Below are positions 1 through 37,023 of a DNA stretch of 37,023 nt, in pieces. The notes beneath the pieces were generated by a model. The model made no database searches. It saw only the letters and a program-made list of their open reading frames with translations, and was not told the origin of the DNA. Position 1 is the stretch's first letter. Each line of letters begins with the position of its first letter. The position numbers and the translations under genes are program-made. The DNA is from Chamaesiphon sp. 336R_metabinner_41 (GTDB lineage Bacteria; Cyanobacteriota; Cyanobacteriia; Cyanobacteriales; Chamaesiphonaceae), in assembly GCA_025359915.1 (NCBI GenBank), contig JANYDE010000111.1:1-37023 (forward strand), written 5' to 3'.

Positions 1-140
1 CTGCAAGATAGCCCTCAAAAGCGCATTCTCTCGTTGAATTTTTGACCAAAAATAGCTAAAACTGCAAGATCTTAAACTGGCTCAGAGCAAGCGTTACAAT
101 GCTATCTTGCAGGTTTTTACTTGTATCCTGTAGCTACCCC
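1..140. mobile_element. Tn3-type miniature inverted-repeat element (MITE/TIME), right part
   Basis: This is the part of a 168-bp miniature element that lies at the start of the window; the rest is at 36884-36911. Bases 1-112 are identical to 36912-37023. The right terminal inverted repeat (about 101-140, read inward from 140) starts GGGGTAGCTACAGGATA and contains AAAACCTGCAAGATAGC. It matches the left repeat at 33 of 40 positions. The tip GGGGT and the AAAAC block at positions 24-28 line up with the 38-bp inverted repeat of Tn3. The element is followed by ATTCA (141-145), the same five bases that precede the left end at 36879-36883. A 5-bp target duplication is the Tn3-family hallmark. There is no internal gene; CTGCAAGAT occurs once more inside, at 62-70. 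It would have to be moved by a transposase elsewhere. Confidence 0.85.
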
Positions 141-11854: not shown

Positions 11855-11896
11855 CAGTTACTATAGTAAAAATACTAATTTTTAGAGTAGTAACTG
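11855..11896 (+). promoter_or_regulatory. Nested inverted repeat at the start of the pPIWI_RE operon
   Basis: CAGTTACTA (11855-11863) is mirrored by TAGTAACTG (11888-11896). Inside it TAGTA (11864-11868) pairs with TACTA (11873-11877). The right arm runs into the GTG start codon of the nuclease gene. A regulator bound here, or an RNA hairpin, would block translation or transcription of the whole island. Confidence 0.5.
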
Positions 11897-16000: not shown

Positions 16001-16208
16001 GGTTCGGTTTATCGATGCAGCTTGGGCACCGAATCTAGCAGAACACAAACCAGAAACTGTCAAAGATTCATTACTGACAGGATTTAAGTATGCACTCCAT
16101 CCTTATTTTGCCAAGACTAGAACCGCCTTTGACGGACGAGATATCGCTTTAGTCAGATCGCTTTACGAACCCTTTTATCGTGCATTGGAGAAAATCGATG
16201 GCATATAA
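13020..16208 (+). CDS. DinG-like helicase of the pPIWI_RE island
   Basis: The 1062-residue protein is an SF2 helicase of the DinG/XPD kind. Motif I is GLLNAGKST (255-263), unusual in having NAGKS. Four cysteines, C336, C352, C375 and C381, lie between motif I and motif II, the position of the Fe-S cluster in DinG/XPD helicases. Motif II is FFDECDK (DECD at 433-436). The N-terminal 240 residues are a family-specific domain. The C-terminal third contains the second RecA fold (ALTRSSPLEDLDD ... LIAPIAAIGRGKNILN, a motif V/VI region). In the three-gene islands the helicase probably unwinds R-loops or duplexes for the pPIWI and nuclease partners. GGAG precedes the ATG by ten bases and there is a four-base overlap with the nuclease gene. 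Confidence 0.8.
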   Translation: MKDTRAWRTEPTKSLQRSDGLNKDQIEALLDIELGLFAIEKLGLQSELDSATTLWLLISNRFFLFPALAKQIETSEAKRNLFNLRQLLHYLTNQDIVEQSLKTYRQIPAKYTAYDLDDAYHFARKSILPAIWGNRFECFENLLSTKLKYRTRPFKLAEPGKEYRFTDRETAYSVRIPADLPIYPGKTISLHGENPQPIKVSVAEMEVAARLLDEKTSGKYNYVRRLEDIIIERSKQMGFAPVTEIEFDGIKHLVGLLNAGKSTLIDVLTVALVQKGHRIGVVFNEVVTCIRMANLLKQVGVRVCVAMGQRNRQSHLENWHSVDGDIEGFTHLSTACPLSNYIQPKPPVSPPCFDLREYQNETEEGTGKLGGLRGCPLIGKCPRHQDTNQLADADVILTTISAAIFTRPSQHVSSQSITYYESIYRTCGVVFFDECDKIQANLDSTFFPTIKLIDRGSSGFLDRVVNWTRSQKFQNSRIDLQQAMFGKFNHALQNADSLVDNIYTQLQISPNESEWLSERFFTCSSLARNFVLDLAKAEGVDTDANTFILDKNPVYLELSEFLLGDWKSSWLAEYALRLSHENYQEQQETIAKLEEDLVNRKWIVSIKDRREFVMRFALFLKLVLFVSFFQQAINSAYGVVEQTDGANDIAFSNRIPQDFYGLVPGLATGLVCGFKLERRDELLTLSYFQILGQGRWLLENFSHVFAGEGTCGAHALLLSGTSWAGASPTYHVDLPVDYLLRPKQSAAMDVLAQSSFHFSPCYWADGKPVRVSGVDSKEESLVQILKSLLQQTDTLQRDFDALPESRKRLIWYVNSYEQVEFVRDAILTMDTGRQWRDRIAALTRSSPLEDLDDSLITRSNVENFASTNRAILIAPIAAIGRGKNILNDAGLSAFGGAYFLVRPHPSPDDLNYKFQIALQQERMAILEERAGNLVEACESWRVDGYRIFLRSLEKDLRYSDLSLPKHVRDGLIWTQMVLTWQAIARTIRGNQPTLVRFIDAAWAPNLAEHKPETVKDSLLTGFKYALHPYFAKTRTAFDGRDIALVRSLYEPFYRALEKIDGI

Positions 16209-19349: not shown

Positions 19350-20258
19350 TTACTCTTTCGGTTTGAAGTCAACTATCATCGATGTCAATTGTTTACGGTT
19401 AAATTCTAACAAATCGATGGCAAATTCTTTTGAAGCAAGATCGATCCAATCAGTGGGAATTCGCTCGAATAGATCGCTAACGATAGTTGAAGAAATAACC
19501 TCAATTTTGCCGATCCAATAACTGGCTGCGGTAGGATAGATATCGAGTAATTCTCTTGCCAAATCTGGGAAATTAAAATTCTCGGCAGCTCTCTCGGTAC
19601 GGCGACAGATGGCAGCTCCCATCATCGACGAGCAACGATCCGCCTTCAGTCCGAGTTTGACTATTTCAGATCCAGACATCTGTACGCCCAAGGAAGCACC
19701 ACAATCAAAATTGGGTAATAACTCTAGACTGCCAGTAGGATCGACTCTCACGCCCCAATTATAGTCGTGTCGATCGATATTACAAATCCAAGCGTCTAGC
19801 ATTAAATACCCAGCAAATAGTTCGGCTGCTGTGGTAATTTGCGGTGGAGCTTCCCAACTAATCGGGAGTTTAATGTTATTAGCTGCTAGAGCATTAATTG
19901 AGTTTTCTAGCGTGTAGTAATAATTATCTTTGCCATAGACGAGGGATAGTAAATCGGCTCCAGCTAGTTCAATTTCCCCAGCTCTGAGAAAATTGGGGCT
20001 GATGACTCCTCGATTCCCCTGCCAGTCAATGCCTAATTCATAGGAGACTGTAGGCAAACCAATTGCTCTGGCTAGCTCTGAAGCAATTTTCTCACTCCAG
20101 GCAGTCGTTCCCATTGGGCTATCAGCTTTAAATACAGCTAATCCTAATTCTGAAGTGGACATCCAGAATTTATCGAGCATTCCTAGATCGACAAATTCTT
20201 CACCTAGTTTTGATGCTTCGCTAACTATAATTACTGCGAATAAACTAGAGAATTCCAT
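19350..20258 (-). CDS. HipA-like kinase
   Basis: The 302-residue protein has the kinase core of the HipA family. The probable ATP lysine is K44 (AVFKAD), the catalytic loop is NIDRHDYNWGV (D162, N167), and the metal-binding motif is NFDCGASLG (D185, in place of DFG). In HipA relatives the kinase phosphorylates a translation factor and halts growth. This one is shorter than HipA (about 440 aa) because the N-terminal subdomain-1 is absent as a fused part. Its start overlaps the upstream HIRAN-like gene by 28 bases, so the two are translated together. The partner may supply the missing function. No HipB-type helix-turn-helix antitoxin is adjacent, which is unusual. The exact start is less certain than the frame; residues from about 20 on align with kin from memory. 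Confidence 0.75.
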   Translation of the reverse strand: MEFSSLFAVIIVSEASKLGEEFVDLGMLDKFWMSTSELGLAVFKADSPMGTTAWSEKIASELARAIGLPTVSYELGIDWQGNRGVISPNFLRAGEIELAGADLLSLVYGKDNYYYTLENSINALAANNIKLPISWEAPPQITTAAELFAGYLMLDAWICNIDRHDYNWGVRVDPTGSLELLPNFDCGASLGVQMSGSEIVKLGLKADRCSSMMGAAICRRTERAAENFNFPDLARELLDIYPTAASYWIGKIEVISSTIVSDLFERIPTDWIDLASKEFAIDLLEFNRKQLTSMIVDFKPKE

Positions 20259-21055: not shown

Positions 21056-22102
21056 CTAATCGGGATTGAGCTTAATCCCCAAATTTAAAGCCGGATTATT
21101 CAACCACCTATCGCCCACATGAGTATAAATCGCCGTCGTGCGCGGGTCGGCATGACCCAGTAAATCCTGCACCTGCCGCAGCGATGCACCACTCTGAATC
21201 GCCAGGGTAGCCGCAGTATGCCGCAGTGAGTGAGCGGATAAAGTCCGTCCCTCCCCATGTTTGATGTTGAGAGCTTTGAGATAACCATCAACAATCTTTC
21301 TCATCCCTCGCCGCGACAAGCGATAATCCTGCTCGGATTCCTTTAAATTTTTCGGACGATAATAGAGGTTAATAAATAAGGGTGTAATCGCAGCAATGCT
21401 ATAACCAGCCTTTCTCCTAGCGAGTAAATAACGGTCTAATAACTCCACCAAGTCGGGAGTCAAAGGCACGATCCGCTGTTGTCGTTTGCTAATCACCGTA
21501 ATCCCCACACCCATTGAACCGCGCACAATATCCTTGATGTCAGCCCGATGCACTTCCATCGTTCTTGCCCCTTCTAAAGTCATAATCCCTAGCAGGAGTT
21601 GGTCGCGCAACGTCTTGAGCGATGTAGGTTTAGCTAAAGGAGCCTGAAGCAAGGCTTGTGCTTCTGCGGTAGTTAAATAAGTAATCCGTTCGGCAGGATC
21701 GCTGCGTTGTTTGGGCGGTTTAACGCCCCAGACGGGGTTAATCGTCAGCAATCTGTATTCCATCGCCGCATCGTACATCCGACTGATGGCAACTAGTTTG
21801 AGGGAAATTGTGGTGGGTTTATACTTTTTTTGAACGAGATGGTGACGATAGATCTTAATCTGATCTCTGGTGACAGTCAGGGGTTGAAGCTGATTTGTCT
21901 CGCACCATTTCAGATAGTAGCGGACTTCACACCAGTAAGTACGGATCGTTTCGGCACTAGCTCCGCCAGAGCCGACATCAAAGGCGAGAAAATTGGTAAA
22001 CGCCGCCAGTAATTCATCGGCATTGAGGGTGAAGGGTGTTCCCTGGTCGATGTTTGAGAGCGAGGTGGTAGCAGTGGGATTTAGTTCATCCAATGTGGGC
22101 AC
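21056..22102 (-). CDS. Tyrosine recombinase (XerC/D-like integrase)
   Basis: This is a 348-residue site-specific recombinase. The N-terminal SAM-like core-binding domain covers about 35-125. In the catalytic domain the conserved residues are R180 (LEGARTMEVH), K206, H291 and R294 (HSLRHTAA), H317 (LLGHADP) and the nucleophile Y326 (TAIYTHV). All are present, so the enzyme should be active. The start is a GTG (MPTLDELNP) without a strong ribosome site. On a plasmid such an enzyme may resolve multimers or integrate cassettes. Two inverted-repeat structures in its upstream region (22157-22178, 22422-22464) are candidate sites of action. It stands alone on the minus strand between the HIRAN/HipA pair and the AbiE pair. 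Confidence 0.9.
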   Translation of the reverse strand: MPTLDELNPTATTSLSNIDQGTPFTLNADELLAAFTNFLAFDVGSGGASAETIRTYWCEVRYYLKWCETNQLQPLTVTRDQIKIYRHHLVQKKYKPTTISLKLVAISRMYDAAMEYRLLTINPVWGVKPPKQRSDPAERITYLTTAEAQALLQAPLAKPTSLKTLRDQLLLGIMTLEGARTMEVHRADIKDIVRGSMGVGITVISKRQQRIVPLTPDLVELLDRYLLARRKAGYSIAAITPLFINLYYRPKNLKESEQDYRLSRRGMRKIVDGYLKALNIKHGEGRTLSAHSLRHTAATLAIQSGASLRQVQDLLGHADPRTTAIYTHVGDRWLNNPALNLGIKLNPD

Positions 22103-22596: not shown

Positions 22597-22631
22597 TGCT
22601 ATTTTATATAGTATGAGTATATTAAATAGCA
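22597..22631 (+). promoter_or_regulatory. Operator overlapping the start of the AbiE operon
   Basis: TGCTATTTTATAT (22597-22609) is mirrored by ATATTAAATAGCA (22619-22631) with one mismatch, and the ATG at 22613 sits in the 9-base spacer. AbiEi antitoxins are known to repress their own operon by binding inverted repeats, so this is the likely operator. Because it covers the start codon it may also shape translation. Confidence 0.6.
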
Positions 22632-23386
22632 CGAAACTAAATAATCTCCTCGTCAATTGGCAACCAGGTGCAGTCTACACCGCCGCTTGGTTATCCAGCC
22701 AAGGCTTTTCTTCTAGCGCGATCGCGGGCTACTGTCAGAGCAATTGGCTCCGCTCGATCGGTCGCGGTGCATTCGTCAAAGTCGGCGATACCTACGATTG
22801 GAGTGGCGGTCTATGGGCGGTACAACAACAATTAGGTTTAGCCATCCATCCAGGAGCAAAGACAGCCCTAGAGTTAGCTGGTTACGGTCACTTTCTCCCC
22901 TTAGAACGACAGTCGGTGATGTTATTTGGCGCGACGGGAATGAAGTTACCCCATTGGTTAAGACAACAAGCCCAGGTATGGCAACTCCAGTATTTTACTA
23001 CCAATCTATTCGCTCAAGCACCCCTGTTAGGATTAACCGAGCGGCGGTTTGGAGACTTATCGATCAACATTTCTACTCCAGAACGCGCCAGTTTAGAAAT
23101 GTTGTATCTAGTACCTCATACCCAATCAGTTGAGGAAGCTTGGTTATTGATGGAAGGCTTGGTTACTTTGCGCCCAAGATTGGTACAGTCATTACTCGGT
23201 GCTTGTAACTCGATTAAGGTACGGCGGTTGTTTTTGTATTTAGCAGAGCAACACCAGCATCCTTGGTTCGAGCGATTGGATCTGAGCGCGATCGATCTGG
23301 GTGTGGGTAATCGATCGATCGTCAGTGGTGGACGGTTAGACCCCAAATATCAGATTACTGTCCCTGCGAATCTGGGAGTGAATTAA
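22613..23386 (+). CDS. abiEi: AbiEi-like antitoxin (type IV toxin-antitoxin)
   Basis: The 257-residue protein has an N-terminal winged helix (about 18-55: GAVYTAAWLSSQGFSSSAIA, then SNWLRSIGRGAFVKVG) followed by the AbiEi body (TALELAGYGHFLPL; LSINISTPERASLEMLYLVP; EEAWLLMEGLVTLRP). It should repress the operon and counteract the nucleotidyltransferase toxin encoded next, without a direct protein complex, as known for AbiE. The stop overlaps the toxin start by one base (TAATG). A palindromic operator spans its start codon. There is a plausible -10 (TATTTT or TATATA) within the left arm. Length and domain order are normal for cyanobacterial members. Confidence 0.85.
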   Translation: MSILNSTKLNNLLVNWQPGAVYTAAWLSSQGFSSSAIAGYCQSNWLRSIGRGAFVKVGDTYDWSGGLWAVQQQLGLAIHPGAKTALELAGYGHFLPLERQSVMLFGATGMKLPHWLRQQAQVWQLQYFTTNLFAQAPLLGLTERRFGDLSINISTPERASLEMLYLVPHTQSVEEAWLLMEGLVTLRPRLVQSLLGACNSIKVRRLFLYLAEQHQHPWFERLDLSAIDLGVGNRSIVSGGRLDPKYQITVPANLGVN

Positions 23387-24300
23387 TGGATCGATCGTTG
23401 TTTTTAGCTACTGTTGATTTACTACTGCGGATTCTGCCCTATGTGATGCGCGATAGTAGGTTCGCGCTTAAAGGTGGTAGTGCGCTGAATTTATTCATCC
23501 GCGATTTGCCGAGGCTATCGGTGGATATCGATTTAACTTACTTGCCAATTGAAGACAGAGACAGTACTTTGGCGAATATTAGCGATATCTTAACCACAAT
23601 CTCACAGGATATTAGTAGGGCGATGCCCCAGGTGACGATTCAACCGCTGCTAGCTACTGATGGGCGGTTGCGGAAATTGGTGGTACGTTCGGGGCTGGTA
23701 ACGGTGAAGGTGGAACCCAATGAAACCATTCGGGGGTCTGTCTTTCCCTGCGAATTACGGGATCTAGCTCCGCAAGTGGAAGAAGAGTTTGGGCTATTTA
23801 TGTCGGTGCAGACGCTCTCGCTGGCAGATTTATATGGGGGAAAGATTTGTGCGGCTCTGGACAGACAACACCCCAGAGATTTGTTTGACGTGCAAATGTT
23901 GTTGGCTAATGAAGGGTTGACTCCAGCGATTAGAACGGCTTTTTTAGTCTATTTAATCAGTCACAATCGTCCGATGGCGGAGGTATTGCAACCCAATCGA
24001 CTACCGCTGGAGACTGGATTTAATAATGAGTTTGTGGGGATGAGTCGATTGTCAGTTAGCTGTGAGGAGTTGGTCGCAGTGCGCGAACGGTTAATCGATT
24101 TGTTACGCCTGTCACTATCAATTGATGAGAAGCGATTTCTACTGTCGGTGAAGGAACTTGAGCCGGATTGGACGCTATTGGGAGTAACGGGGGTTGAGGA
24201 GTTACCAGCAGTACGGTGGAAGTTGCAGAATCTGGCGAAAATGCCTAAGCCGAAGCACAAGCTGGCAGTTGCAAAGTTGAAGGAAGTGCTAGGTCTGTAA
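23386..24300 (+). CDS. abiEii: AbiEii-like nucleotidyltransferase toxin
   Basis: The 304-residue protein is of the DNA polymerase beta-like nucleotidyltransferase class. The conserved motif is KGGSALNLF (K29, GGS 30-32) followed by RLSVDIDLTYLP with the metal-binding pair D47 and D49. A further conserved stretch is LADLYGGKICAALDRQHPRD with DLFDVQML (about 147-172), which belongs to the family. Relatives modify tRNA or otherwise stop growth when phage infection or plasmid loss upsets the antitoxin. It is translationally coupled to abiEi. The pair serves plasmid maintenance, phage abortive infection, or both. No damage to the frame was seen. Confidence 0.87.
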   Translation: MDRSLFLATVDLLLRILPYVMRDSRFALKGGSALNLFIRDLPRLSVDIDLTYLPIEDRDSTLANISDILTTISQDISRAMPQVTIQPLLATDGRLRKLVVRSGLVTVKVEPNETIRGSVFPCELRDLAPQVEEEFGLFMSVQTLSLADLYGGKICAALDRQHPRDLFDVQMLLANEGLTPAIRTAFLVYLISHNRPMAEVLQPNRLPLETGFNNEFVGMSRLSVSCEELVAVRERLIDLLRLSLSIDEKRFLLSVKELEPDWTLLGVTGVEELPAVRWKLQNLAKMPKPKHKLAVAKLKEVLGL

Positions 24301-24760: not shown

Positions 24761-25285
24761 TTAGAACGGTTCTAGATCCTGGACTAGTCGATCCCATCGG
24801 TCTTTTTCTGTTCCCAATTCCTCAAGCTGTTCGATTTGACCCAATTCCTCCCGCCGCCAGATTTCGTGTCGGTACCACGAGGATTTCAATTTACAGTAGA
24901 AATATTCCGGTATTTCTTCAAATCCAAACTTGTGCTGCCAAGCCCGACTACGCTCGTTACAAATATGGTAGCCACACCGTAGATCTCTGACCCCCTCCGC
25001 GTACAAGCTATTTGTGGCACTGGCAACCATCGCGGTGGCGATGCCCGTCCTTTGATGATTGGGCTTCACCAACAGCAAATCTAGTTCTACCCTAGAGTGT
25101 TTATTCTCGACAAATAAGGCTAGACCGATGATTTGAGTGCTATTTCGATCCAGTGCCATTCTCGAAACTGGATGAGGCTTGCCACGCACCCCTTGAAAAT
25201 AGTTGGTGATGTTCTTGCGAGCATGGGTACGGAACGAGTCCAATGACCAGTCACAAAATTCTACCGAATCTTCAAATGCCTCCAA
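24761..25285 (-). CDS. GNAT-family acetyltransferase
   Basis: The 174-residue protein has the GNAT fold. The acetyl-CoA motif A is VKPNHQRTGIATAMV (QRTGIA, about 75-90), preceded by the strand RVELDLLLV. The last third (YHICNERSRAWQHKFGFEEI) is motif B, with the usual NxxxxxxxxKFGF ending. The C-terminal tail, YRHEIWRREELGQIEQLEEL, is a helix seen in cyanobacterial relatives. The only start in frame before the stop upstream is a TTG at 25285; an ATG at 25300 in another frame is soon closed, so a few N-terminal residues may have been lost through a small frameshift. The substrate is unknown. It may be cargo, or a toxin-like acetylase; no antitoxin partner is seen. Confidence 0.78.
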   Translation of the reverse strand: MEAFEDSVEFCDWSLDSFRTHARKNITNYFQGVRGKPHPVSRMALDRNSTQIIGLALFVENKHSRVELDLLLVKPNHQRTGIATAMVASATNSLYAEGVRDLRCGYHICNERSRAWQHKFGFEEIPEYFYCKLKSSWYRHEIWRREELGQIEQLEELGTEKDRWDRLVQDLEPF

Positions 25286-25506: not shown

Positions 25507-25565
25507 TAAGCTAAAATAGATAATAGTCCAATCCTATTGCTAGGTGCTAATTGCATCCGATCGTT

Positions 25566-26204
25566 ATGCCTGTAATTGGAGTGTGTAATCAAAAAGGAGG
25601 GAGCGGTAAAAGTTCGACTGCCGTTCATTTAGCCCGCTGGCTTCAGTCTCAATCTGATTCGGTTTTTGTAATTGATAGTGACGGACAACGTACTTCATCA
25701 CTGTGGTTGAGTAATCTATTGCAGCCAATTCCGGTGGAAATCATTCCCGATCCAAATGAATTACTCGAACGTTTGCCGAATCTAGCGACTGAACATCAAT
25801 GGTTGATTGTTGATGCACCAGGGACTTTAGCTGAAGCGACTAGAGCGATCGTGTTGTGGAGTGATTTGGTACTGATTCCCTGTCAACCCACTGGAGTCGA
25901 TCTCGCTAGTGCTTCTGATACCGTGCGGTTGATCAAGCAAGCGCGGGCAATTCGCAAAGGAGAGCCAAAAGCGGCGATTTTTTTGAATCGGGCGGTAAAA
26001 GGAACTCGACTGAAACAGGAAGCTTTTACTGTTCTCAAAGCAGTGCCGGATATTAATGTTCTGGGCGAGGTGATCCATCAACGTCAGATTATTGCTGATG
26101 CTTTCGGGCAGGGGGCGACTGTCTTCGATCTCGGTGGAGATGCTGCCAAAGACGCTCAGAAGGAATATTCCAGATTGTTTACAACTATATTGAAGTCATT
26201 ATGA
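25566..26204 (+). CDS. parA: ParA-type partition ATPase
   Basis: This Walker-type ATPase moves plasmid copies over the nucleoid. The start at ATG 25566 (MPVIGVCNQKGGSGKSS) gives 212 residues; a TTG at 25551 is possible. The deviant Walker A is KGGSGKSS (10-17) with signature Lys10 and Lys15. The A' motif FVIDSDGQRTSSLWL and Walker B WLIVDAPG follow. It lacks an N-terminal DNA-binding domain, so it is a type Ib ParA like those paired with small ribbon-helix-helix partners. Its stop overlaps the next gene (ATGA). The palindromes at 25396-25506 lie directly upstream. A second, actin-type partition operon is at 8936-10608 on the same plasmid. Confidence 0.88.
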   Translation: MPVIGVCNQKGGSGKSSTAVHLARWLQSQSDSVFVIDSDGQRTSSLWLSNLLQPIPVEIIPDPNELLERLPNLATEHQWLIVDAPGTLAEATRAIVLWSDLVLIPCQPTGVDLASASDTVRLIKQARAIRKGEPKAAIFLNRAVKGTRLKQEAFTVLKAVPDINVLGEVIHQRQIIADAFGQGATVFDLGGDAAKDAQKEYSRLFTTILKSL

Positions 26205-26783: not shown

Positions 26784-29700
26784 ATGTTCAAGAATTGGTT
26801 TCTAATTGCTGGAGTCTCCTGTGGGGTAGGATTTGGATCGACTTTTCTGATTAGTCGAAATTTACAACAGTCTGCATGGGCGGGTTTAGGAACAGTTCCG
26901 GCAGTTGCGGCTAGTCTAACGATCCTATCCCGTCAGCGTCAGGAAGAGATCGAGCGTCAGGTAGCTAAATCGAGATTGAGCTTAGATGATTTGCAACGCG
27001 AAGAGCAACTTGTCAAAGAGCAATTACAAATTAGAAAGAGTAGCTGTCAAAAGATTATCGTAGGGGGACAGGAGTTACAAACAGCATTCACTCAACTGAA
27101 ACAAGATGTAAATCGATATCGAGAGGAACAAGCAGGATTAGAAAGAGAAATAAATTCTTTAGTGCTGCAAAGGCAGGCACAAGAGTCCTCGTTAGTTAGA
27201 TTAGATGCAAAGGTTGTCGCTCGACAGAATAACTTACAGACAACTCAGGCAGAATTAGCTCTGATTCAAACTCAAAGGCAATCAGCAATCGATTCAGCTA
27301 AACAATCAAATTTAGAACTCCAGAGCGTTCGCGAGAAAATACGCCAATATTCTGTTACTAAGGAACAACTAGGGTTTCAACTTACCGATTTACAGAATCA
27401 AGCACAAAGTTTACAAACTAAACTAGTAAATAGAGAAGTCGATCTCAGGGGGATTGAGTACCATATTCTCCAAATGGAGGAGCGGCGCGATCGAGTTGCG
27501 ATCGCGATTGTAGATCTGGATGGATCGTTGGAGCAGAAACAATCTCTATTGCAGGATATAGACCGAGATCGGCAACAACAACAAGCATTAATACAAGAAA
27601 TATCAGACCTACTGTTGGAAAAGCAGGATCGGGAAGTCTTACTTGGTGAATTGGTGGTAAATATTACCGTCAAGCAAAATATTATATTTGAATTAGATAC
27701 TGAAGTTAGCGAAGGACAGGCTAATTTAGACAGGATATCTATTGACTTAGTTCAGATTGAAGCACAAAGACAATCCGCGATCGATTTAGCGCAGCGATCT
27801 GAGTTAACACTCGCCAATATCCAGGAAGAGATAAGTAACCACTGCATTAATAAAGAAAAGATAGCGGCTGAAATTGCTGAGTTACAGAATCGAGGAGAAA
27901 ATCTAGAAGCCGAAATAGTCACACAGAAAATCAATCTAACCGAATTACAGGAACAGATATCCGCGCTGCAAGAGCAACTCTCGATCGAAATAGAGCCTCA
28001 ACAACACTTATCTAATCCAGAGCCAATCCTAGATCCCGATCTAGGAAATCAGAATAAAGATCTAGATCTTCATCTAGATGAATCGGAAGAGATCGAAAAT
28101 ACCAGGCAACATCGAAATTGCCGAAGTTTATATTCTAGTCATGAATTAGTCGATCGCCGTCAAGGTTTTATGAATCCTCAATACACGAAAAAAATATGGC
28201 AAGAGCAAATCCTACCATTTTGGTTAGATCGAGATAAGCCCATAGGTCACAAATTTCTCGGTCATGTGAATATTCCTCGTAGTCAAAGCGATGAATTAAT
28301 CGCTCTCGTTGGTGAGAACTTACGACGATTGGATGGAATCACAGAACGAAAAACTAGAATTTTTAATAGTTTAGATCAAGATTGGATTAAGATTTTTACC
28401 TTTGCTGTGTCTGAATATGCTTATTACTATTCTGACGATCTGTTTTGGGAAGGATTATGCAATCGCTGGGAAATATCATCAAATCAAACTGTAAATACTG
28501 CTCTACGGCAGATCGCAAAAAAGGGGATTAAATTACTCGGTTTGGTTGAGGCTCCAAATGGTTATAAATATGTTTCTACCTTGTGGCTTCAAAGTTGCAT
28601 CCCTTCTCAAAATTTAGACCAATTTGCTCAATTGTTGAAAGAATTAGCCGAGCGGTATGGATGGGATTATTTAGCAGAAAATTCAGTTGAAAATCTGACA
28701 GAGAAAATCTTATACTTGTACAATCACAAATATCCTCAAGGTGGAACTTTATCTCATTTATTTAAGTATCAAGAACCAATATCAGGTAGAATTATTCAGG
28801 GAATAGCAAAAATTGCTAGAAAATTAGAAGCTAATCAACTTTCACCTACAATATTAGAAGATGAAAGACAACGAGATAGTATTATAGGCAATCTTTCTCT
28901 AGATGAGGGATTCTTTCTTCGAGACTGGGAAGCGATCGTTAAAATACTGACACCTAAAGAAAATAATAGCCGTTGCCAAAATATTGATAAAAAAGAGAAA
29001 GAGAACGATCTCAGCTTACATCTAGATATTGAAGATTCTAGAAATATTCAGTTGATCTTACCAGAACAAAGTCTTTGGGATAATGAATGGGAAAATCACA
29101 GAGGTAGTGAATGCAAGATATCTGAAGCTGGATGGGAAGGGAATATTCCTATGAAAGGGAGTTTGGAAATTCCTGAACTCACAATCGATATAAATCAAGT
29201 CAGTCAGGAATACATTGTTTTATTAAAAAACGATCGTGGTGATTCTATCCATACATGGTTTTGTGAAGGGATAGATGAGGAATTGCCCTGTTTAATTTTC
29301 GACGCATTTTCAGGAGAATATTTTCCGCTTAACTTAGATAATCCGATAATTATCGGTGTAGGACAGATTATTTGTTTTACTCCGAAAGAAATAACGATCG
29401 TATTTGATGAAGGAATTCAATCGATCGATAATTGTATCCCCTGTAGTCTCAAAGGTTGGAAAGGTATTGAGATGAGATTGGGTGGAGCCAGCGGATGTAT
29501 ATCGATTCAATCTGACGATAAAACTATCGATAGAACAATTGACTGGCAATTGCAAGAAAATGACACACCCCGCCTGATCGGAATCAAATCAAACTGGAGA
29601 AAATCGATATATCTAGAAGTACCTATCCTTTGTCTACCACCTATTCAGCAATCTTTACAGGTTGATATTAAAATTCAAGATGCTGAATCTAAGAGCGAAC

Positions 29701-30692
29701 TCTGTTCTAACAGTTATACTTTCCCCGCTAGTTTAAAATGGTTTGAGCAATCTCTCGAACAATGGATTGACAAGCCTGGTAACTATCGAATGAGTATTTC
29801 TAGCGATAACATAAACTGGAGTCAGAAATTTACTGTGATTGAAAAATATAGTACTTTAGTTATCTCTGAAATACCCAAACCACAAATTTATATTAAAGAG
29901 CGAATTGTAGATGTTGAGAAATTACCGTTAAGTTATAAATCTTCCCATGAATTCGATGCTCAAATCATGGAAATTCGAGGATTGTGGAATTTAGAGCAAG
30001 TTAGTTTGATTATGACTAACGGGACTGATGGAGATATTTGTCATTATACTCAAGCCGATCGAGAGGGTAATTTAAAAATTAGCTTATCTGAGTTATCAGA
30101 ATTTTGGGACAAGTCTGCCGATTATTACTCCTTGAGTTATCAACGCTGTGGTTACGATAGACAATCTTTAATTGAAGCAAAATTAAGCCTTAATAAGTTT
30201 GAGTGGCTCTGGATAGACGGAGAATTGACAATTTCTGGATTAAAACCAGATCGTCCATACGATCTATCTTGCTGGAATTTACTCTTACCTAATCGAGAGG
30301 CTAAGAAACTTCCACTACCTCTAGCAACAAATGAACGAGATACGCTCTCTGTCGATATTAATTTACCTACTGGTATCTACTACCTGCGACTGCTGAATGT
30401 TCAAGAGAAAGTAGAAGCAAAACTAGGATTTCATTGTATTGGGGCAAGAAACGAGCTGCCCGAAGCAGCCTTAGATGATGAATACTTAGAAAATTACTGT
30501 TTTACGATTTTAGGTGATGAATCTGTAGAAGATTTTCAAAAGGCAGCGGAGAAATTAGATATTTGCTTTGATGTCGATCTAGTTAAAGGTGCGATCGACA
30601 GCCTGAAAGCATCTGAAAACCATGTGTTGCCAGAATGGTTGAATAAACAAGGATTAATTATTAAATTAGATACTTTGGTTGATTTGAATTAA
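26784..30692 (+). CDS. Membrane-anchored coiled-coil protein with beta-rich C-terminus, candidate defence component
   Basis: This 1302-residue protein belongs to no family I can name. Two hydrophobic segments (about 4-24 and 30-48) should anchor the N-terminus in the membrane. Residues about 50-400 are an almost unbroken Gln/Glu/Leu-rich coiled coil with repeats such as LALIQTQRQSAIDSAKQSNL and LVQIEAQRQSAIDLAQRSEL. An acidic linker follows (about 405-440). Residues about 449-725 are an alpha-helical domain (WLDRDKPIGHKFLGHVNIP; WIKIFTFAVSEYAYYYSDDL). Residues about 792-1240 are beta-rich, probably several immunoglobulin-like modules. It is the first gene of the operon with a 311-aa protein and a DUF1998 helicase. 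A sensor or scaffold role at the membrane is inference. The ribosome binding site is weak and the start less certain. Confidence 0.6.
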   Translation: MFKNWFLIAGVSCGVGFGSTFLISRNLQQSAWAGLGTVPAVAASLTILSRQRQEEIERQVAKSRLSLDDLQREEQLVKEQLQIRKSSCQKIIVGGQELQTAFTQLKQDVNRYREEQAGLEREINSLVLQRQAQESSLVRLDAKVVARQNNLQTTQAELALIQTQRQSAIDSAKQSNLELQSVREKIRQYSVTKEQLGFQLTDLQNQAQSLQTKLVNREVDLRGIEYHILQMEERRDRVAIAIVDLDGSLEQKQSLLQDIDRDRQQQQALIQEISDLLLEKQDREVLLGELVVNITVKQNIIFELDTEVSEGQANLDRISIDLVQIEAQRQSAIDLAQRSELTLANIQEEISNHCINKEKIAAEIAELQNRGENLEAEIVTQKINLTELQEQISALQEQLSIEIEPQQHLSNPEPILDPDLGNQNKDLDLHLDESEEIENTRQHRNCRSLYSSHELVDRRQGFMNPQYTKKIWQEQILPFWLDRDKPIGHKFLGHVNIPRSQSDELIALVGENLRRLDGITERKTRIFNSLDQDWIKIFTFAVSEYAYYYSDDLFWEGLCNRWEISSNQTVNTALRQIAKKGIKLLGLVEAPNGYKYVSTLWLQSCIPSQNLDQFAQLLKELAERYGWDYLAENSVENLTEKILYLYNHKYPQGGTLSHLFKYQEPISGRIIQGIAKIARKLEANQLSPTILEDERQRDSIIGNLSLDEGFFLRDWEAIVKILTPKENNSRCQNIDKKEKENDLSLHLDIEDSRNIQLILPEQSLWDNEWENHRGSECKISEAGWEGNIPMKGSLEIPELTIDINQVSQEYIVLLKNDRGDSIHTWFCEGIDEELPCLIFDAFSGEYFPLNLDNPIIIGVGQIICFTPKEITIVFDEGIQSIDNCIPCSLKGWKGIEMRLGGASGCISIQSDDKTIDRTIDWQLQENDTPRLIGIKSNWRKSIYLEVPILCLPPIQQSLQVDIKIQDAESKSELCSNSYTFPASLKWFEQSLEQWIDKPGNYRMSISSDNINWSQKFTVIEKYSTLVISEIPKPQIYIKERIVDVEKLPLSYKSSHEFDAQIMEIRGLWNLEQVSLIMTNGTDGDICHYTQADREGNLKISLSELSEFWDKSADYYSLSYQRCGYDRQSLIEAKLSLNKFEWLWIDGELTISGLKPDRPYDLSCWNLLLPNREAKKLPLPLATNERDTLSVDINLPTGIYYLRLLNVQEKVEAKLGFHCIGARNELPEAALDDEYLENYCFTILGDESVEDFQKAAEKLDICFDVDLVKGAIDSLKASENHVLPEWLNKQGLIIKLDTLVDLN

Positions 30693-30731
30693 AGACCAGA
30701 ATAGATCCAATTCAAAATAGGAGTATAGGCA

Positions 30732-31667
30732 ATGCTATCAAATTCAATTATAAATTTATTTAGTAATCATCGCGATCCAAAAAAACAGGATAGACCAAAT
30801 ACTTTAAATAAAACACAGATTATTAAACTATTGAGAGAAAGTGTATCACCCGATCGTGAACTATCGAATTTACAGGAAGAAATTTGTCAAGCTTTACAAG
30901 AGTTAGAAGCTCAAGGTGAAATCTTAGCAAGTAAAGGTAATTATTATTGCATCGCTCCACCTACTCTCTTGGCAAACTCGCGGGAAGATGTAGCAGGAGT
31001 AAGATTTCGAGGCGATCGAGCTTATCTTTCAGTAGCTCATGAACGTCTAAACTCCAGGAATCAGAATCGAGATGAAGTCAAGATTCATCCAAGAATTAGG
31101 ACATTCGATCGTATTCAAGCAAAACTCGATCCAATCGGGATTCGGTTGCTGACTGCTGAAGATTTGATTCAGTGTCTACCATCTCCGCAGAAACCTCCTG
31201 AGTATGTGTTGAGATGCCCCACAACTTTTCCCGATTCGTCTGATGGTGAATTGTTCGGTTATGAGCCAGTACCCAATACTCTTCAGGAAGATCGCTGGCA
31301 ACCTGTTATTGTCAGCCAAGTATCGACATTAGCCGATCCCAGCATCTTAAAACTCTCCAAAGATCGATATCATCGGAACGATCGCTATTTTTACTGGAAA
31401 GGCAATAAAGTGTATGAATTAGATCGAGATGTAGCAGTTTTAGCGATGTTTGATAAAGATCGGAAAACAAATTTCCCTCTAAGGGTTATTTGGCATACTT
31501 CAGAGGGAAAACTAGACTTAGGAGATATTTATCTGCCCCTTGCATACATGAGGTATTTATGGCAGTTATCTGTGGAAACCGAGCAATATCGAGTTCGCTT
31601 TGTACCTGCCATGTCTAGATCGCTTATCGAACCTGTTTTTCAAAGATTAGGATGCCTGCGAAGATGA
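30732..31667 (+). CDS. Middle gene of the helicase operon, unknown
   Basis: The 311-residue protein has no family I recognise. Residues about 25-75 look like a winged helix (TLNKTQIIKLLRESVS; LQEEICQALQELEAQGEILA; KGNYYCIAPP), suggesting nucleic-acid or protein binding. The rest is mixed alpha/beta with a possible WYL/SH3-like strand pattern (RYFYWKGNKVYELDRDVAVL; LRVIWHTSEGKLDLG). AGGAG precedes the ATG at 30732. It lies 39 bases after the coiled-coil gene and its stop overlaps the helicase start (ATGA), so the three products are very likely made together and act together. Confidence 0.65.
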   Translation: MLSNSIINLFSNHRDPKKQDRPNTLNKTQIIKLLRESVSPDRELSNLQEEICQALQELEAQGEILASKGNYYCIAPPTLLANSREDVAGVRFRGDRAYLSVAHERLNSRNQNRDEVKIHPRIRTFDRIQAKLDPIGIRLLTAEDLIQCLPSPQKPPEYVLRCPTTFPDSSDGELFGYEPVPNTLQEDRWQPVIVSQVSTLADPSILKLSKDRYHRNDRYFYWKGNKVYELDRDVAVLAMFDKDRKTNFPLRVIWHTSEGKLDLGDIYLPLAYMRYLWQLSVETEQYRVRFVPAMSRSLIEPVFQRLGCLRR

Positions 31668-34600
31668 ACCCAAAATCCAGTAAATATCTCGATCCAATTA
31701 AAGCAGTCACTCAACCGCGCGAAGATTTGATTCGCTATCTCCTCACGGCTTATCCTCTGCGCGATCGCCATTTACGTTATGGCTTGAAGAAATTACTGGA
31801 ACAACAGGGAAATATCTGGCAAGAACCCTATTTAGAAGGCTCCCAACCCTATCGATCGACTACTACTGTCGCGAAACTAGTTACTGATGGTGTACTTCAT
31901 CCAGAAATGGAGAATATATTCACGCCTAGCGATCGAGCTTTATACGAACACCAAGAAAAAGCTGTCAAAGCTGTAATTCAAGATCGCTCGAACATCGTCG
32001 TAGCAACAGGTACGGGTTCGGGTAAAACTGAGTGTTTCCTCTTACCCATGTTCGATACCTTGCTGCGGGAAGAGGAGAATCTATTTATCCCTGGGGTACG
32101 GGTGGTGATTTTGTACCCGATGAATGCTCTCGTCAACGATCAAGTTAAGCGGTTGCGAAAATTGCTCTGTAAGCAAAAGAAGAGTAAAATTCGCTTTGGT
32201 TTCTATACCAGTAGAACAGAAACCGACGAGAAAAAAGCCAGAGAAATGCTGGCAGAAGAGTTATCTGCATATGAAGATAAAGAGCTTGATGAATTATTTA
32301 GTAAAGGCGATCTCATTCCTACTAATCGGGATGAAAAAGTTGCAGCAGCGATCGAGAACGTTCTAAGAATACAATCAGTCTCTAGAAACGAAATTCAAGC
32401 AGAGCCACCCCATATCTTGGTGACTAACTACTCCATGCTGGAGCATATGTTAATTCGCCCGACGGAGCGTAAAAAAGTATTTGAGGCTTCTAAGAACGTC
32501 TTTAAAATGCTGGTTGTAGATGAAGCCCATAGCTATAATGGTTCGACAGGTAGTGAAGTCGCTATGCTGCTAGAGCGGTTGAAAGTTGCCGTAGGGATAG
32601 AGGAAAAGGGAAAGGTGCGCTGTATTGCTACCAGTGCAAGTTTAGGCGATGAATCGGTAGATGATGAAGTTAAAAAGTTCGCTAAAGATTTTTTTAGCGA
32701 ACAATTCGATCGAGTAATTCGAGGCGATCGAGAGCCTGCGCTCGAAAGAATGGGCGAACCTTATTTATTACCCTCCGAATATACCGCACAAAAGATATTA
32801 ACTGCCCTTAGTAATTTAGACTTACCCAGTCTTGACGACGAGCTTAATGTCTGGGTAGAACGACTCCGAGGTTTTATTCCTGCCGAACACCTAGAAACAG
32901 CAAAGAATCAAGTCAATGGAGATATCCATAAACTCTTGTGGCTTGCACTAAAACAACATCCCCTAGTACATCGATTAATCTATATTCTCAGTCGGAAGCC
33001 AGAACCTTGGGGAGTAATTACTAAATCGGCAGAACTTTGGGGATTAAGTTTACCTACAGACAGCGATGGTAATGTTGATGACAAGGAAGCTCAAACAGCC
33101 CTAGCTCGTTTATTACAGTTAGGGACGATGGCTCGTCAGCGTGATGATGATTTACCACTTCTACCTGTGAAAATTCATCTTCTCTTTCGCAGTCTAGAGG
33201 GACTATATGCTTGTGTTAATCCTCAGTGTTGTGGTGCAGAAACCGATCCTGAATATGCAGATAAACCGCGTCGATACGGTCGTCTTTATTTGAATGAAAA
33301 GAAAAATTGTGAAGATTGCAGTTCACCTGTTTTAGAATTAGGTAGTTGTTCTCAATGCGGACAAGGATACTCATTCACCCAAATTAATAATAATAGTGGG
33401 AAATTAGAATCTCTACCGCGATCGTATCAAGGATTGAAAGACAATAAAAATATCTACACTCTCACTTCTGGTAACTTACATAGCATCACCGAAGAAGATG
33501 AAATCGGCGAAGGTGAAGAAGAAAAATCTTCCACAGCCCAAACTATGATTTTGAGCGATCGAGATGGTTGGATCGGGATAGCTGCGAAAAAAGACTTCAA
33601 CTCAAAAGATCGAGTAGAAGGAGAATTTCATTTGGCCTGGCATCGCCATAAAAATGATAAAGACTCAAATGGATGCTATTTACCAAAATGTGCGGCTTGT
33701 GGTGTTAGACCGACTCGTGCCCAAACTATTAATCGCTTTGTCACCTATACTGACGAACCTTTGCAAATCGCGATCGATAGTTTATTCGAGCTATTACCAG
33801 AAGCCGAACGCAAAAATGGAGAAGCATCCGAGCGGAAGTTATTAACTTTTTCTGACGGTCGTCAAGATGCGGCATTTTTTGCTTCTGACTATCAACGTAA
33901 CTCAACTGAAAAAGTTTATCGCCAAATGCTATGGCAATCATTTCAAGCAGCAAAAGGTGATGATGGTGTTGTCACAGTTAAAAAATTAACCGAGCGGTTA
34001 AAATTAATTTTTGTAGAAACATCCATTCCTCATCCAGACCGAACTTCTGCTGACAATTACAAGAGCTATCGGCAAGAAGATGAACAGAGTTTTAATAACA
34101 AAAGAGACTGTGAAGATAAAGCTGAAAAACGAGCCAAAGAAATCTTAGTGCGAGAGTTTGCGCTACCTTTTAATCGTCGATCTACTTTTGAAGCTTATAC
34201 CCTACTAGCTTGCCATCTTGACTTGTCTGACGATCGCCTATTTGAATCCATATCTAACAAGTTTAGTATATCCACCGCCGAAGCGCGTATTTTCATAACT
34301 GTTGTAACCGATATTATTCGTCGAACTGGAATCGTTAGCGTTGAAGGATCGTCCAATTATTTTCCTGAAACTGGCGGTGTAGAAGGAACACGACCAGAAA
34401 TGATCGATACTCAAGGAAAATCCAAGAATTACCTATTTTTAGAAAAGGGAGAAACTGAGAGAAAAAGATATGAAGATTCGCCTTCATTTATACCCAAATG
34501 GAAAAAAGATGGTGAAGTAAGTCAAGCACAAAATAGGCTAGGGTGGTATTACCATCAATTCTTTGGCGATCGATTCCCAACCAGAGAAGATTTTATCTGG

Positions 34601-36922
34601 CTATTTGATAAGTTAAAAGAATATCGCATACTTACCCCAGCGAAGAGTGGCTATCATCTAAAATGGGATAACCTAAATATCATTGAAACCAAACATGATT
34701 GGCAGCAATGCGATAGCTGTCAACAGGTATTTCATATCCCAAATTTATCAGATATTAAAAATTCGACTTTGAATATCACAGGATGTCCAGCTTTTAGATG
34801 TGAAGGAACTCTTGAGCCTTATACTCTAGAACAAATTGAGAGAACCAGAGCAGAACATTATCAACAGCATCTCATTCTCAATCGATCGCCTTTACCATTG
34901 AGATCGCAAGAACATACAGCTCAGTTGGGTACAGGCGAATTAGAGAAGCGAGAAAACCGTTTTCGGCGCGGGCAAATTAATATGCTCAGTTGTTCGACAA
35001 CCTTGGAAATGGGCGTAGATATTGGGGACTTGCAAGCAGTTGTGCTGCGTAATTTCCCCCCTCATGTCAGTAACTATCAACAACGTGCAGGGCGTGCGGG
35101 TAGACGTACTGATGGAGTTGCAATCACGCTAATGTATGGGCAACGCCGCCCTCACGATCGCTATTACTTCGAGCAACCAGAGCGGTTGATTGCTGGCACC
35201 AACCAAATCCCTAAATTAGATGTTGACAATCGTCAAATTCAAGAACGACATATTCGGGCAGAATTATTAGCAGCATTTTTGTACGATTGTAGAGGTGTTC
35301 GTGCAGAAAAGATTACGATGGCTGATTTTCTAGCGTTACCTTTCAATAACCCTGCTGCCCATCCAGATTTTACACCGCCACAGACAGCAACGATTGTGCG
35401 ATTACAAGAATGGCTGGATAAAGACGAAGCTAGAAGTACAGCTCAATCTTGGATTGACAGACTAGAAAGCTCTGATAATAAGATTGAATTACTCAATCGA
35501 TTTATCCAAGCTCTTGTTGTATTTCAAAAAGACCAATTAGCTGACTGGAACGATCTAGCTGCACCTCTAGGAGGAATCAAAGCAGATATCAATGCTGAAA
35601 ACGATCGAAGGAACCGTCAATCCCTAGAAAAGTGGCGCGATCGAATTGAAGCCGAACTAGATAAAATTGCTAAACGCCGCTTGCATGATGAATTAGTCCA
35701 GGCAAGTATTCTACCTATTTATGGTTTCCCCATTGATGTTGTTCGCTTGTTAACTGGAGAAAGTAACGAATTTAAGTCATCTCAAGGGAAACATCGATTA
35801 GAACGCGATCGACGTTTGGCATTGGGTGAATATGCACCTGGACAGGAAATAGTTGTTGACGATCGTGTTTATCGAAGTGTAGGTATTACTCGACCTAAAG
35901 AACTAGAAAATAAATATTATTGGGTTTGCAAAGAATGTAATCATTTTCATTCTTCTCCTAAAGAAGATTTGGTAAATCAATGCCCAGTTTGCAATTGGGA
36001 ACCGACATCAGTATCTCATCAAAAGATGAAACTGTATAAAATTCCCAAGTCATTTATGACAGATTTCTCAGCTTCCGCAAAAGTTACCCCTTACATCAAA
36101 CCGCAACGTCAGCCAACATCTCAGGTATTTTTAGCTCAAGGCGGTCAAGATATTGAAAATATCCCCGCTTCTTTCTACGATCTTACAGTCAGCAGAAGTG
36201 GTACGTTCTTTCTCGCCAACCAAGGATTATTAGGTAATGGCAGAGGTTTTGACAAACAAGGATTTGCAATCTGTCAAAATTGTGGACGGGATTTAACTGA
36301 ATTGGTTAAAAAACAAAGAGAAGAGCAATCCAAGAAAGGTAAATCTAAAAAATCGATTGGGAACTCAAAAGAACATCTAAAACATGATAATCCCATTACA
36401 GGGAAAGATTGTCTGCCATATGAGAAATATATCCACTTAGGGCATGAATTTCGCAGTGATTTACTCAAGATTCAGTTTAATCCTACTACTAACCCACCAT
36501 ACCTATTTGGAGAGGTGAGAAATATATTAGATGGAACGACTGTTTCTTCTGTTGAGAATGACGAAAATAAAAGTATTGGCGGTTTGGATTTTTGGCGATC
36601 GCTTACCTATGCCTTACTCGCTGCTGCTGCTCTAGTAATAGACGTTCCACGGAATGAGCTAGATGGTTTATTTAGACCATTGAATAATCGTTCTACTGAA
36701 ATTATTATTTATGACAATGTACCTGGTGGCGCAGGTTATAGCAAAAGGATAGCAGAAAAATTTTCAGAAGTTTTAGAGAGGGCTTATAAACTTACCAATG
36801 AATGTGAGTGTGGCACAAGTTGCTATGAATGTTTGAGAACTTACTCGAATCAACCATTTCATAACGATCTCGATCGTCATTCAGGGGTCGCTACAGGATA
36901 TGCCCGAAAACCTGCAAGATAG
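31664..36922 (+). CDS. DUF1998-type SF2 helicase, C-terminus altered by a miniature transposon
   Basis: This is a large DEAH helicase of about 1752 residues. Motif I is ATGTGSGKT (114-122), motif II VVDEAHSYNG (DEAH 286-289), motif III TSASLGD, and motif VI QQRAGRAGRR (1139-1148). Several zinc clusters follow (for example CEDC ... CSQCGQGY, CAACG, CQNCGRD). The closing DUF1998 site is C1714, C1716, C1720 and C1723 with CLRTYSNQPFHN. DruE of Druantia and the DISARM helicases share this plan. The chosen ATG overlaps the previous stop (ATGA); an ATG at 31652 is possible. A miniature Tn3-type element cuts the gene after codon LDRHS. The element supplies 12 new residues and a TAG, replacing 18 native ones (found at 146-199). 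All motifs are kept, so function may survive. Confidence 0.82.
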   Translation: MNPKSSKYLDPIKAVTQPREDLIRYLLTAYPLRDRHLRYGLKKLLEQQGNIWQEPYLEGSQPYRSTTTVAKLVTDGVLHPEMENIFTPSDRALYEHQEKAVKAVIQDRSNIVVATGTGSGKTECFLLPMFDTLLREEENLFIPGVRVVILYPMNALVNDQVKRLRKLLCKQKKSKIRFGFYTSRTETDEKKAREMLAEELSAYEDKELDELFSKGDLIPTNRDEKVAAAIENVLRIQSVSRNEIQAEPPHILVTNYSMLEHMLIRPTERKKVFEASKNVFKMLVVDEAHSYNGSTGSEVAMLLERLKVAVGIEEKGKVRCIATSASLGDESVDDEVKKFAKDFFSEQFDRVIRGDREPALERMGEPYLLPSEYTAQKILTALSNLDLPSLDDELNVWVERLRGFIPAEHLETAKNQVNGDIHKLLWLALKQHPLVHRLIYILSRKPEPWGVITKSAELWGLSLPTDSDGNVDDKEAQTALARLLQLGTMARQRDDDLPLLPVKIHLLFRSLEGLYACVNPQCCGAETDPEYADKPRRYGRLYLNEKKNCEDCSSPVLELGSCSQCGQGYSFTQINNNSGKLESLPRSYQGLKDNKNIYTLTSGNLHSITEEDEIGEGEEEKSSTAQTMILSDRDGWIGIAAKKDFNSKDRVEGEFHLAWHRHKNDKDSNGCYLPKCAACGVRPTRAQTINRFVTYTDEPLQIAIDSLFELLPEAERKNGEASERKLLTFSDGRQDAAFFASDYQRNSTEKVYRQMLWQSFQAAKGDDGVVTVKKLTERLKLIFVETSIPHPDRTSADNYKSYRQEDEQSFNNKRDCEDKAEKRAKEILVREFALPFNRRSTFEAYTLLACHLDLSDDRLFESISNKFSISTAEARIFITVVTDIIRRTGIVSVEGSSNYFPETGGVEGTRPEMIDTQGKSKNYLFLEKGETERKRYEDSPSFIPKWKKDGEVSQAQNRLGWYYHQFFGDRFPTREDFIWLFDKLKEYRILTPAKSGYHLKWDNLNIIETKHDWQQCDSCQQVFHIPNLSDIKNSTLNITGCPAFRCEGTLEPYTLEQIERTRAEHYQQHLILNRSPLPLRSQEHTAQLGTGELEKRENRFRRGQINMLSCSTTLEMGVDIGDLQAVVLRNFPPHVSNYQQRAGRAGRRTDGVAITLMYGQRRPHDRYYFEQPERLIAGTNQIPKLDVDNRQIQERHIRAELLAAFLYDCRGVRAEKITMADFLALPFNNPAAHPDFTPPQTATIVRLQEWLDKDEARSTAQSWIDRLESSDNKIELLNRFIQALVVFQKDQLADWNDLAAPLGGIKADINAENDRRNRQSLEKWRDRIEAELDKIAKRRLHDELVQASILPIYGFPIDVVRLLTGESNEFKSSQGKHRLERDRRLALGEYAPGQEIVVDDRVYRSVGITRPKELENKYYWVCKECNHFHSSPKEDLVNQCPVCNWEPTSVSHQKMKLYKIPKSFMTDFSASAKVTPYIKPQRQPTSQVFLAQGGQDIENIPASFYDLTVSRSGTFFLANQGLLGNGRGFDKQGFAICQNCGRDLTELVKKQREEQSKKGKSKKSIGNSKEHLKHDNPITGKDCLPYEKYIHLGHEFRSDLLKIQFNPTTNPPYLFGEVRNILDGTTVSSVENDENKSIGGLDFWRSLTYALLAAAALVIDVPRNELDGLFRPLNNRSTEIIIYDNVPGGAGYSKRIAEKFSEVLERAYKLTNECECGTSCYECLRTYSNQPFHNDLDRHSGVATGYARKPAR

Positions 36923-37023
36923 CCCTCAAAAGCGCATTCTCTCGTTGAATTTTTGACCAAAAATAGCTAAAACTGCAAGATCTTAAACTGGCTCAGAGCA
37001 AGCGTTACAATGCTATCTTGCAG
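36884..37023. mobile_element. Tn3-type miniature inverted-repeat element, left part and core
   Basis: The left inverted repeat begins GGGGTCGCTACAGGATATGC (36884-36903) and runs to about 36923. It is preceded by the target bases ATTCA (36879-36883). Bases 36912-37023 repeat 1-112 exactly and must be the same DNA, so the element continues at 113-140 and is 168 bp long on the circle. The stop codon that ends the helicase frame (36920-36922) is supplied by this element. GGGGTC and CGAAAAC at positions 22-28 coincide with the Tn3 inverted repeat, supporting a Tn3-family origin. Confidence 0.85.

Follow-up and report, generated by a model that had tools for sequence, protein, structure and literature searches.

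A plasmid-borne trio of genes in Chamaesiphon that is probably a shortened copy of a cyanobacterial Druantia subtype

The window analysed here, the whole 37,023-nucleotide contig JANYDE010000111.1 of Chamaesiphon sp. 336R_metabinner_41, carries three adjoining genes which raise the question of whether they form a defence system and, if so, of what kind. The first-pass annotation had proposed an undescribed system composed of a membrane-anchored coiled-coil protein (here P1), a possible winged-helix protein (P2) and a DUF1998 helicase. All three frames were confirmed on the forward strand in the tight arrangement that had been described (Table 1), with a gap of 39 bases between P1 and P2 and a four-base overlap between P2 and the helicase by way of a second helicase start at 31664. 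A promoter scan, which was uninformative, gave no forward-strand promoter-like site upstream of P1.

Table 1. Coordinates of the trio, its predicted domains and the adjoining MITE within the window
Feature	Position	Strand	Description
P1, 1302 aa	26784..30692	+	Membrane-anchored coiled coil, helical domain and Ig/Fn3-like array; presumed sensor
Two hydrophobic (probable membrane) segments of P1	26799..26930	+	Residues ~6-24 and ~31-49; Kyte-Doolittle
P1 coiled-coil rod	26937..28043	+	Residues ~52-420, limits by eye; optional, in 7/23 sequences
P1 conserved core	28164..30692	+	Residue ~461 to end
P2, 311 aa	30732..31667	+	Remote DruD homologue
P2 winged-helix domain	30732..30962	+	Residues 1-77; best VIA-align row Z 10.9, 1.6 Å, 67 aligned
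Helicase ORF, 1756 aa from ATG at 31652	31652..36922	+	From the ORF list
DruE-type YprA-family helicase, 1752 aa from the overlapping start	31664..36922	+	Without the C-terminal tail of relatives
DUF1998/MrfA Zn-binding domain (Pfam MZB)	36602..36835	+	Residues 1651-1728 of the 1756-aa form
168-bp MITE near the end of druE	36884..37023 (first 140 bases) and 1..140 (last 140 bases)	+	Inverted ends, target-site duplication

The last 112 bases of the window are the same as the first 112 (window 1-112). This end repeat frames a single MITE, whose inverted ends are imperfect and about 28 bases long and whose 5-bp target-site duplication, one copy at the contig end and the other at its start, is exact. 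The contig is thus most likely circular, a plasmid of about 36,911 bp. A plasmid origin, assumed earlier, is in keeping with this closure and with the presence of a MobA/VirD2-like relaxase gene (7200-8216, reverse strand) and a ParA gene just upstream of the trio (25551-26204). A second copy of the MITE, with its own 5-bp duplication by eye, was seen on contigs C114 (end) and C18 (start) of genome G000, and partial relatives occur on Pseudanabaena galeata plasmids and one Synechococcus plasmid. On the forward strand the plasmid also encodes a DUF3987 protein (4167-6434), a pPIWI-RE operon recognised by PADLOC (PprRE, PprDinG and PprPIWI, 11896-18762) and an AbiEi/AbiEii type IV toxin-antitoxin pair (22613-24300). 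The reverse strand holds a DDE transposase (508-2169), a tyrosine recombinase (21056-22102) and two possible toxin genes, one with a weak HipA-like kinase match (19350-20258) and one for a GNAT acetyltransferase (24761-25285).

The helicase was found by Pfam search to contain DEAD, Helicase_C and DUF1998 domains, the last being the MZB family of Pfam. It is matched by 53 PADLOC families, at the top of which stands DruE1 (5.9e-239, 795 bits), followed among the DruE models by DruE3, DruE2 and DruE4 (687, 563 and 509 bits), with SngC (115 bits) as the best model outside DruE, DpdJ scoring 103 and DISARM DrmA 62. By its sequence the protein is a DruE, the large YprA-family helicase with DUF1998 that belongs to Druantia of any type. 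The DUF1998 helicase of about 1750 aa described earlier is there, but not at full length: the helicase is unbroken at 2076-2127 aa in 17 of the 22 other loci described below, and the window copy, whose helicase motifs are intact by eye, stops before a C-terminal tail of about 340-375 aa present in its relatives. A search of the assembly gave no remainder of this tail (best E 0.5). The MITE contains the final 12 residues of the window ORF together with its stop. Across the empty site the frame continues for 18 codons, of which roughly the first nine resemble relatives, and then stops; the tail was therefore missing without the insertion, which changed no more than the last few residues of DruE.

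To place the helicase, a quick tree of 22 DruE-like proteins was built, in which the nine cyanobacterial trio helicases grouped as a clade of their own, with support 100 on a stem of 1.33, separate from the rows of types I, II and III. In a second tree, from which the ArmC, Thermus and Leisingera rows were left out and to which E. coli DruE1 was added, they were sister to type III (97), a join which the program flags as long branches meeting. Support for kinship with type III that is separate from the tree came from the tail: a profile of eight cyanobacterial tails matched the type III DruE tail at 92.8% (E 4.1e-7; reversed 0.049), against 0.019 or worse for six other groups. The motifs Y-x-D-[RS]-Y, H-x-R and D-x-G are common to all 11 tail rows, that is, eight of eight cyanobacterial and three of three type III. 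The type III tail is reported, in the accessible text of two papers, to hold one inactive and one active PLD module (PMC13192584; PMC12458937). The homologous tail is present in all eight relatives examined; its PLD nature is taken from the same accessible text and was not seen by Pfam. On sequence grounds, then, the DruE of intact relatives has a type III-like C-terminal tail, and the window copy ends before it.

P2 had been described as a protein with a possible winged helix that could not be matched to DruA-D. The first statement holds, as the AlphaFold model (pLDDT 84.6) contains such a domain, with structural matches to LACTB2 (Z 10.9, 1.6 Å, 67 aligned) and Stn1 (Z 10.2, 2.1 Å, 68 aligned); Foldseek alone gave no match at 0.001 (best 0.038). 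The second is not supported. In a profile-profile comparison with DruD from P. putida and two E. coli copies, P2 matched over 70 C-terminal columns at 78.5% (E 1.7e-5 for one comparison), and the best of ten other families, at 0.0018, was a small protein beside another cyanobacterial DruE. In a control against 115 reference-locus proteins the two E. coli DruD proteins ranked first and second (1.6e-4 and 3.2e-4), the next following at 0.0085. When realigned, the two match collinearly along 250 columns, and E. coli DruD, like P2, is encoded immediately ahead of druE and overlaps it by four bases. P2 is beyond the reach of the DruD1 model, since at 0.001 none was found in 386 genomes, the window's own included; DruD was likewise not reached by tblastn in the window and the 22 other loci. 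The assignment of P2 as a remote DruD is well supported, although remote, with profile scores under the usual comfort level. A reading as a CARF protein, from weak matches in four of 22 members (E 0.0047), was given up, since the winged helix was all that the fold search returned and DruD gave the better score.

The two N-terminal hydrophobic segments and the long coiled coil reported for P1 are present, the best 19-residue Kyte-Doolittle windows of the segments scoring 1.74 and 1.42. The rod, which had been given a central role, is however optional: P1 starts at window residue ~461-462 in 16 of 23 sequences, and a coiled coil ahead of the core is found in only seven (window, L005, L009, L011, L012, L013 and L026). 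Two hydrophobic segments occur in five of the six long forms measured, which were all but L026, and one in L009. With only seven of 23 sequences having the rod, a membrane-tethered rod is an option and not the core of the system. Beyond generic coiled coil, neither P1 nor P2 matched anything in Pfam, PADLOC or NCBIfam at 0.1, the coiled coil of P1 giving SMC-type matches all below cut-off, and neither matched a solved structure by sequence up to E 1; as far as informative library matches go, the earlier failure to place the two proteins is borne out.

The structure of P1 was modelled on the core of a relative (L011, 960 aa, 16-row alignment; pLDDT 73, pTM 0.39), and in this model the domains are usable and their arrangement is not. 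It begins with helices, which extend to about residue 270; a beta-rich array follows (290-760), then a second helical stretch (775-845) and, last, an alpha/beta domain (872-960), the array being in keeping with the Ig-like C-terminus proposed earlier. The Foldseek rows listed for the core had low TM-scores and comprised S-layer, macroglobulin, complement and Ig/Fn3 proteins, and VIA-align rows for the array reached Z 6.8 with mostly large rmsd, which points to a common Ig/Fn3-like fold and to nothing further. For the C-terminal domain, the ten best VIA-align rows were all NusG (Z 9.8-12.0, 2.0-2.6 Å, 79-96 aligned), the best having Z 12.0 and 2.1 Å over 89 aligned residues. NusG was absent among the 50 Foldseek rows listed for the core, and Pfam gave no match on this domain. 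With hhalign it aligned to E. coli K-12 NusG over 89 columns (E 0.0067, probability only 5.7%); the controls gave 0.56 reversed, 0.61 for tufB and 0.098 for secE, and the best of 115 other proteins gave 0.057. By these models the last P1 domain of the relatives has the NusG N-terminal (NGN) fold, with a modest profile probability. The FFPGY stretch of NusG is a contact to RNA polymerase. This motif is not kept, as the aligned stretch in L011 and the other rows shown reads differently. The domain is present in 14 of the 16 alignment rows, the exceptions being the window and the L026 fragment, and in all 15 loci with whole frames; the window P1 is shorter by this C-terminal domain, which measures about 90-110 aa.

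Comparison of P1 with known Druantia proteins was also carried out. As a DruH by sequence, nothing stood out: the core against 19 proteins gave a best forward E of 0.058 and a best reversed E of 0.075, against 11 family profiles including DruH, DruB and DruC a best of 0.059, and against a profile of three DruH an E of 0.7. Two of 18 P1 proteins matched the DruC1 model (best 4e-4), a candidate that was dropped because this model gives matches in 13 of 14 controls and in all but 33 of 292 genomes (259), and because its matches fall in the coiled-coil part.

Whichever trio protein was used as query, tblastn returned one set of five cyanobacterial plasmid records, of which three are near-identical; the helicase search, at 1e-50, also gave one Meiothermus record. 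A pattern-based and non-exhaustive scan of the genome collection with the P2 profile gave at least 17 loci (17 of 17 with cyanobacterial titles), and two further trio loci were found from other genomes. Loci were located through P2 and then read for their neighbours, and the relatives of P1, P2 and the helicase adjoin in the same order in all 22 other loci (L005-L009, L011-L027), so the three genes do occur together outside this plasmid. All frames are whole in 15 of these, and at least one is split or cut in seven (L005, L009, L013, L017, L025, L026 and L027). The system is rare, P2 being found in three of 386 genomes of the phylum sample including the window's own. Two further genomes were left out of these counts, namely G125 (L004/L010), with a broken P2 fragment (E 5e-4) lacking P1 or helicase within 20 kb, and G334 (L082), with a broken fragment of 42 positions (E 8e-5). 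Pattern-based scans of viral contigs gave no relative of P2, DruH or DruD.

Upstream of the trio, a divergently transcribed WYL regulator family is present in 16 of 23 sequences and absent in the window; this count includes L024, where the gene is cut by the contig end, and excludes L023, which starts 542 bases before P1. Pfam detected WYL or WCX in four of seven members tested. WYL regulators beside defence systems have already been described (PMC9122601 and PMC9122589). Six of nine other neighbours, hand-picked and not random, had PADLOC matches, spread over five loci: a HamB-like helicase, two Avs4-like proteins, PbeA, an SduA-like protein and a second DruE-like helicase, the last of which adjoins the trio on a Pseudanabaena plasmid (L006, 19168-24858, reverse strand). 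The defence role first proposed is supported by the DruE helicase, the recurrence near other defence genes and the WYL regulator. The dN/dS of every trio gene was below 0.31 in each of six pairs compared, of which one has saturated dS, and that of P1 was the highest of the three in all six (0.147-0.309); the accessible text of PMC13192584 reports a similar difference, DruH having diverged more than DruE.

Druantia type I consists of DruABCDE, and type II, or type IV CoCoNuT, of DruMFGE. A tblastn search of the window and the fetched stretches of the 22 loci gave no DruA, DruB, DruC, DruF, DruG or DruH; the DruA-C queries, taken from P. putida and E. coli, gave nothing at 1e-3 in the trio loci, although the proteins of each species do detect those of the other. 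The result for DruF and DruG refers to two proteins assigned by position from a single Agrobacterium locus, with inferred names and no second copy as positive control. The trio resembles type I in that DruE1 is its best PADLOC model, P2 occupies the place of DruD before druE, and long-form P1 and DruC both have a coiled coil and both precede DruD. It differs in its missing DruA, DruB and DruC, in its helicase tail and in a P1 core unlike DruC. With type III (DruH-DruE) it shares the homologous tail in intact relatives and the nearest clade in one of the two trees. DruH, as described in the accessible text of PMC13192584, is like P1 large, more divergent and equipped with Ig-like domains between helical parts. 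Yet no sequence similarity between P1 and DruH was found, the trio has an additional DruD-like gene, intact P1 ends in the NusG-like domain, and most trio loci have a WYL regulator. Type II shares a DruE-type helicase, but the DruE2 score is lower (563 bits) and the trio has no methyltransferase. ARMADA, DISARM and Dpd share a YprA-family helicase with DUF1998, but DrmA and DpdJ score far below DruE, the trio has none of the partner genes of these systems, and the ArmC tail does not match the trio helicase tail.

It is therefore proposed, with a probability of roughly 0.6, that the trio belongs to a cyanobacterial subtype of Druantia, as a shortened copy carried on a plasmid. The intact cassette, as seen in relatives, consists of P1, the DruD-like P2, DruE with its type III-like tail and, usually, the divergent WYL regulator. 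This version, with a new multi-domain P1 in place of the known helper proteins, is apparently undescribed. No named system was clearly matched by all three proteins, in agreement with the novelty first claimed, and among the matches listed no title or abstract opening describes the trio; subscription papers and the supplementary tables of PMC12458937, which may contain these helicases, lie outside this search. The accessible text of PMC12458937 names cyanobacteria once, for ARMADA.

By analogy with type III, P1 is probably the sensor, P2 an adaptor and DruE the effector. According to the accessible text of PMC13192584, DruH is a likely sensor with three Ig-like domains and DruE is a helicase-nuclease loading on 3' tails. 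A sensor role for P1 is suggested because its parts run parallel to this description of DruH, from a helical N-terminus through the Ig/Fn3-like array to a helical part, and its dN/dS is the highest in all six pairs. P1 would take the place of the type III DruH as infection sensor, the array binding a phage protein or structure, and the long form would do so from a membrane anchor on its coiled-coil rod. P2 might bind DNA through its winged helix and couple P1 to the helicase, which would load on 3' single-stranded tails of replicating phage DNA, unwind it and, where the tail is present, cleave it. A mycobacterial DruH-DruE pair is reported to be activated by a phage minor tail protein, neither protein having a canonical nuclease domain (PMC13316683, accessible text). 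With the DruE tail and the last P1 domain missing, the window copy may be impaired, and would either act without a nuclease of its own, as reported for DruE of M. smegmatis in the same text, or be on its way out.

The strongest competitor accepts the family as a defence system and takes the window copy for a decaying remnant without function, which is plausible, if somewhat short of an even chance. Both P1 and DruE are shorter than in intact relatives, the MITE sits in the last codons of druE, and seven of the 22 other loci also have a split or cut frame. On the other hand, the three frames are still open over 1302, 311 and 1756 codons with helicase motifs that look intact by eye, the insertion affected only the final residues of a frame that ended 18 codons later anyway, and a DruE without a canonical nuclease domain is reported to work in M. 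smegmatis (PMC13316683, accessible text). An improbable alternative is a separate, non-Druantia defence system in which a membrane-tethered rod couples envelope sensing of entering DNA to the helicase. In its favour are the two hydrophobic segments and coiled coil in the window, L005, L011, L012 and L013, and P1 gives no informative match in libraries or solved structures by sequence, but the rod is absent from 16 of the 23 sequences, and the helicase is a DruE and P2 is DruD-like. Less likely still is a plasmid maintenance or DNA repair module pairing an SMC-like coiled-coil protein with a YprA-family helicase beside ParA, for although two public records label P1 relatives 'chromosome segregation ATPase-like' and ParA is encoded a short way upstream, the likeness to SMC proteins is one of generic coiled coil, with scores under the cut-offs, the trio also occurs on a 4.26-Mb contig of genome G187 (with split frames there), and it lies near defence genes and the WYL regulator with a helicase that scores best with DruE models.

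If the trio is indeed of the Druantia family, it links two of its types, joining a type I-like DruD gene to a helicase with a type III-like tail in intact relatives, and adds a sensor candidate of its own. This linkage makes it testable which partner directs DruE and what DruD does. One would not expect a NusG-like domain in a defence protein, and this point, too, can be tested directly. It could be speculated, as a long shot, that in intact systems this domain attaches the sensor and the helicase to RNA polymerase during transcription; the system would then watch phage transcription or R-loops and send DruE onto the exposed strand, the long form doing so at the membrane. If true, this would be a Druantia that senses via the transcription machinery.

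It should also be noted that a second cyanobacterial arrangement, consisting of a 656-664 aa protein, a 302-361 aa protein and DruE, was seen at L054 (Nostoc sp. C052, 6065-14583) and L058, with L057 also listed; its DruE groups with the type II row, and its small protein is the weak P2 relative mentioned above (E 0.0018). In a Haloplanus locus (L059), a gene of 611 aa (5182-7017) precedes a DruE, and E. coli DruD matches this locus over 77 aa (4.8e-5); the DruD C-terminal domain is perhaps fused to the 611-aa protein. In E. coli strain 11 (L066, 6933-13376), a type I druE is annotated without its C-terminus and has an IS3-family transposase directly behind it.
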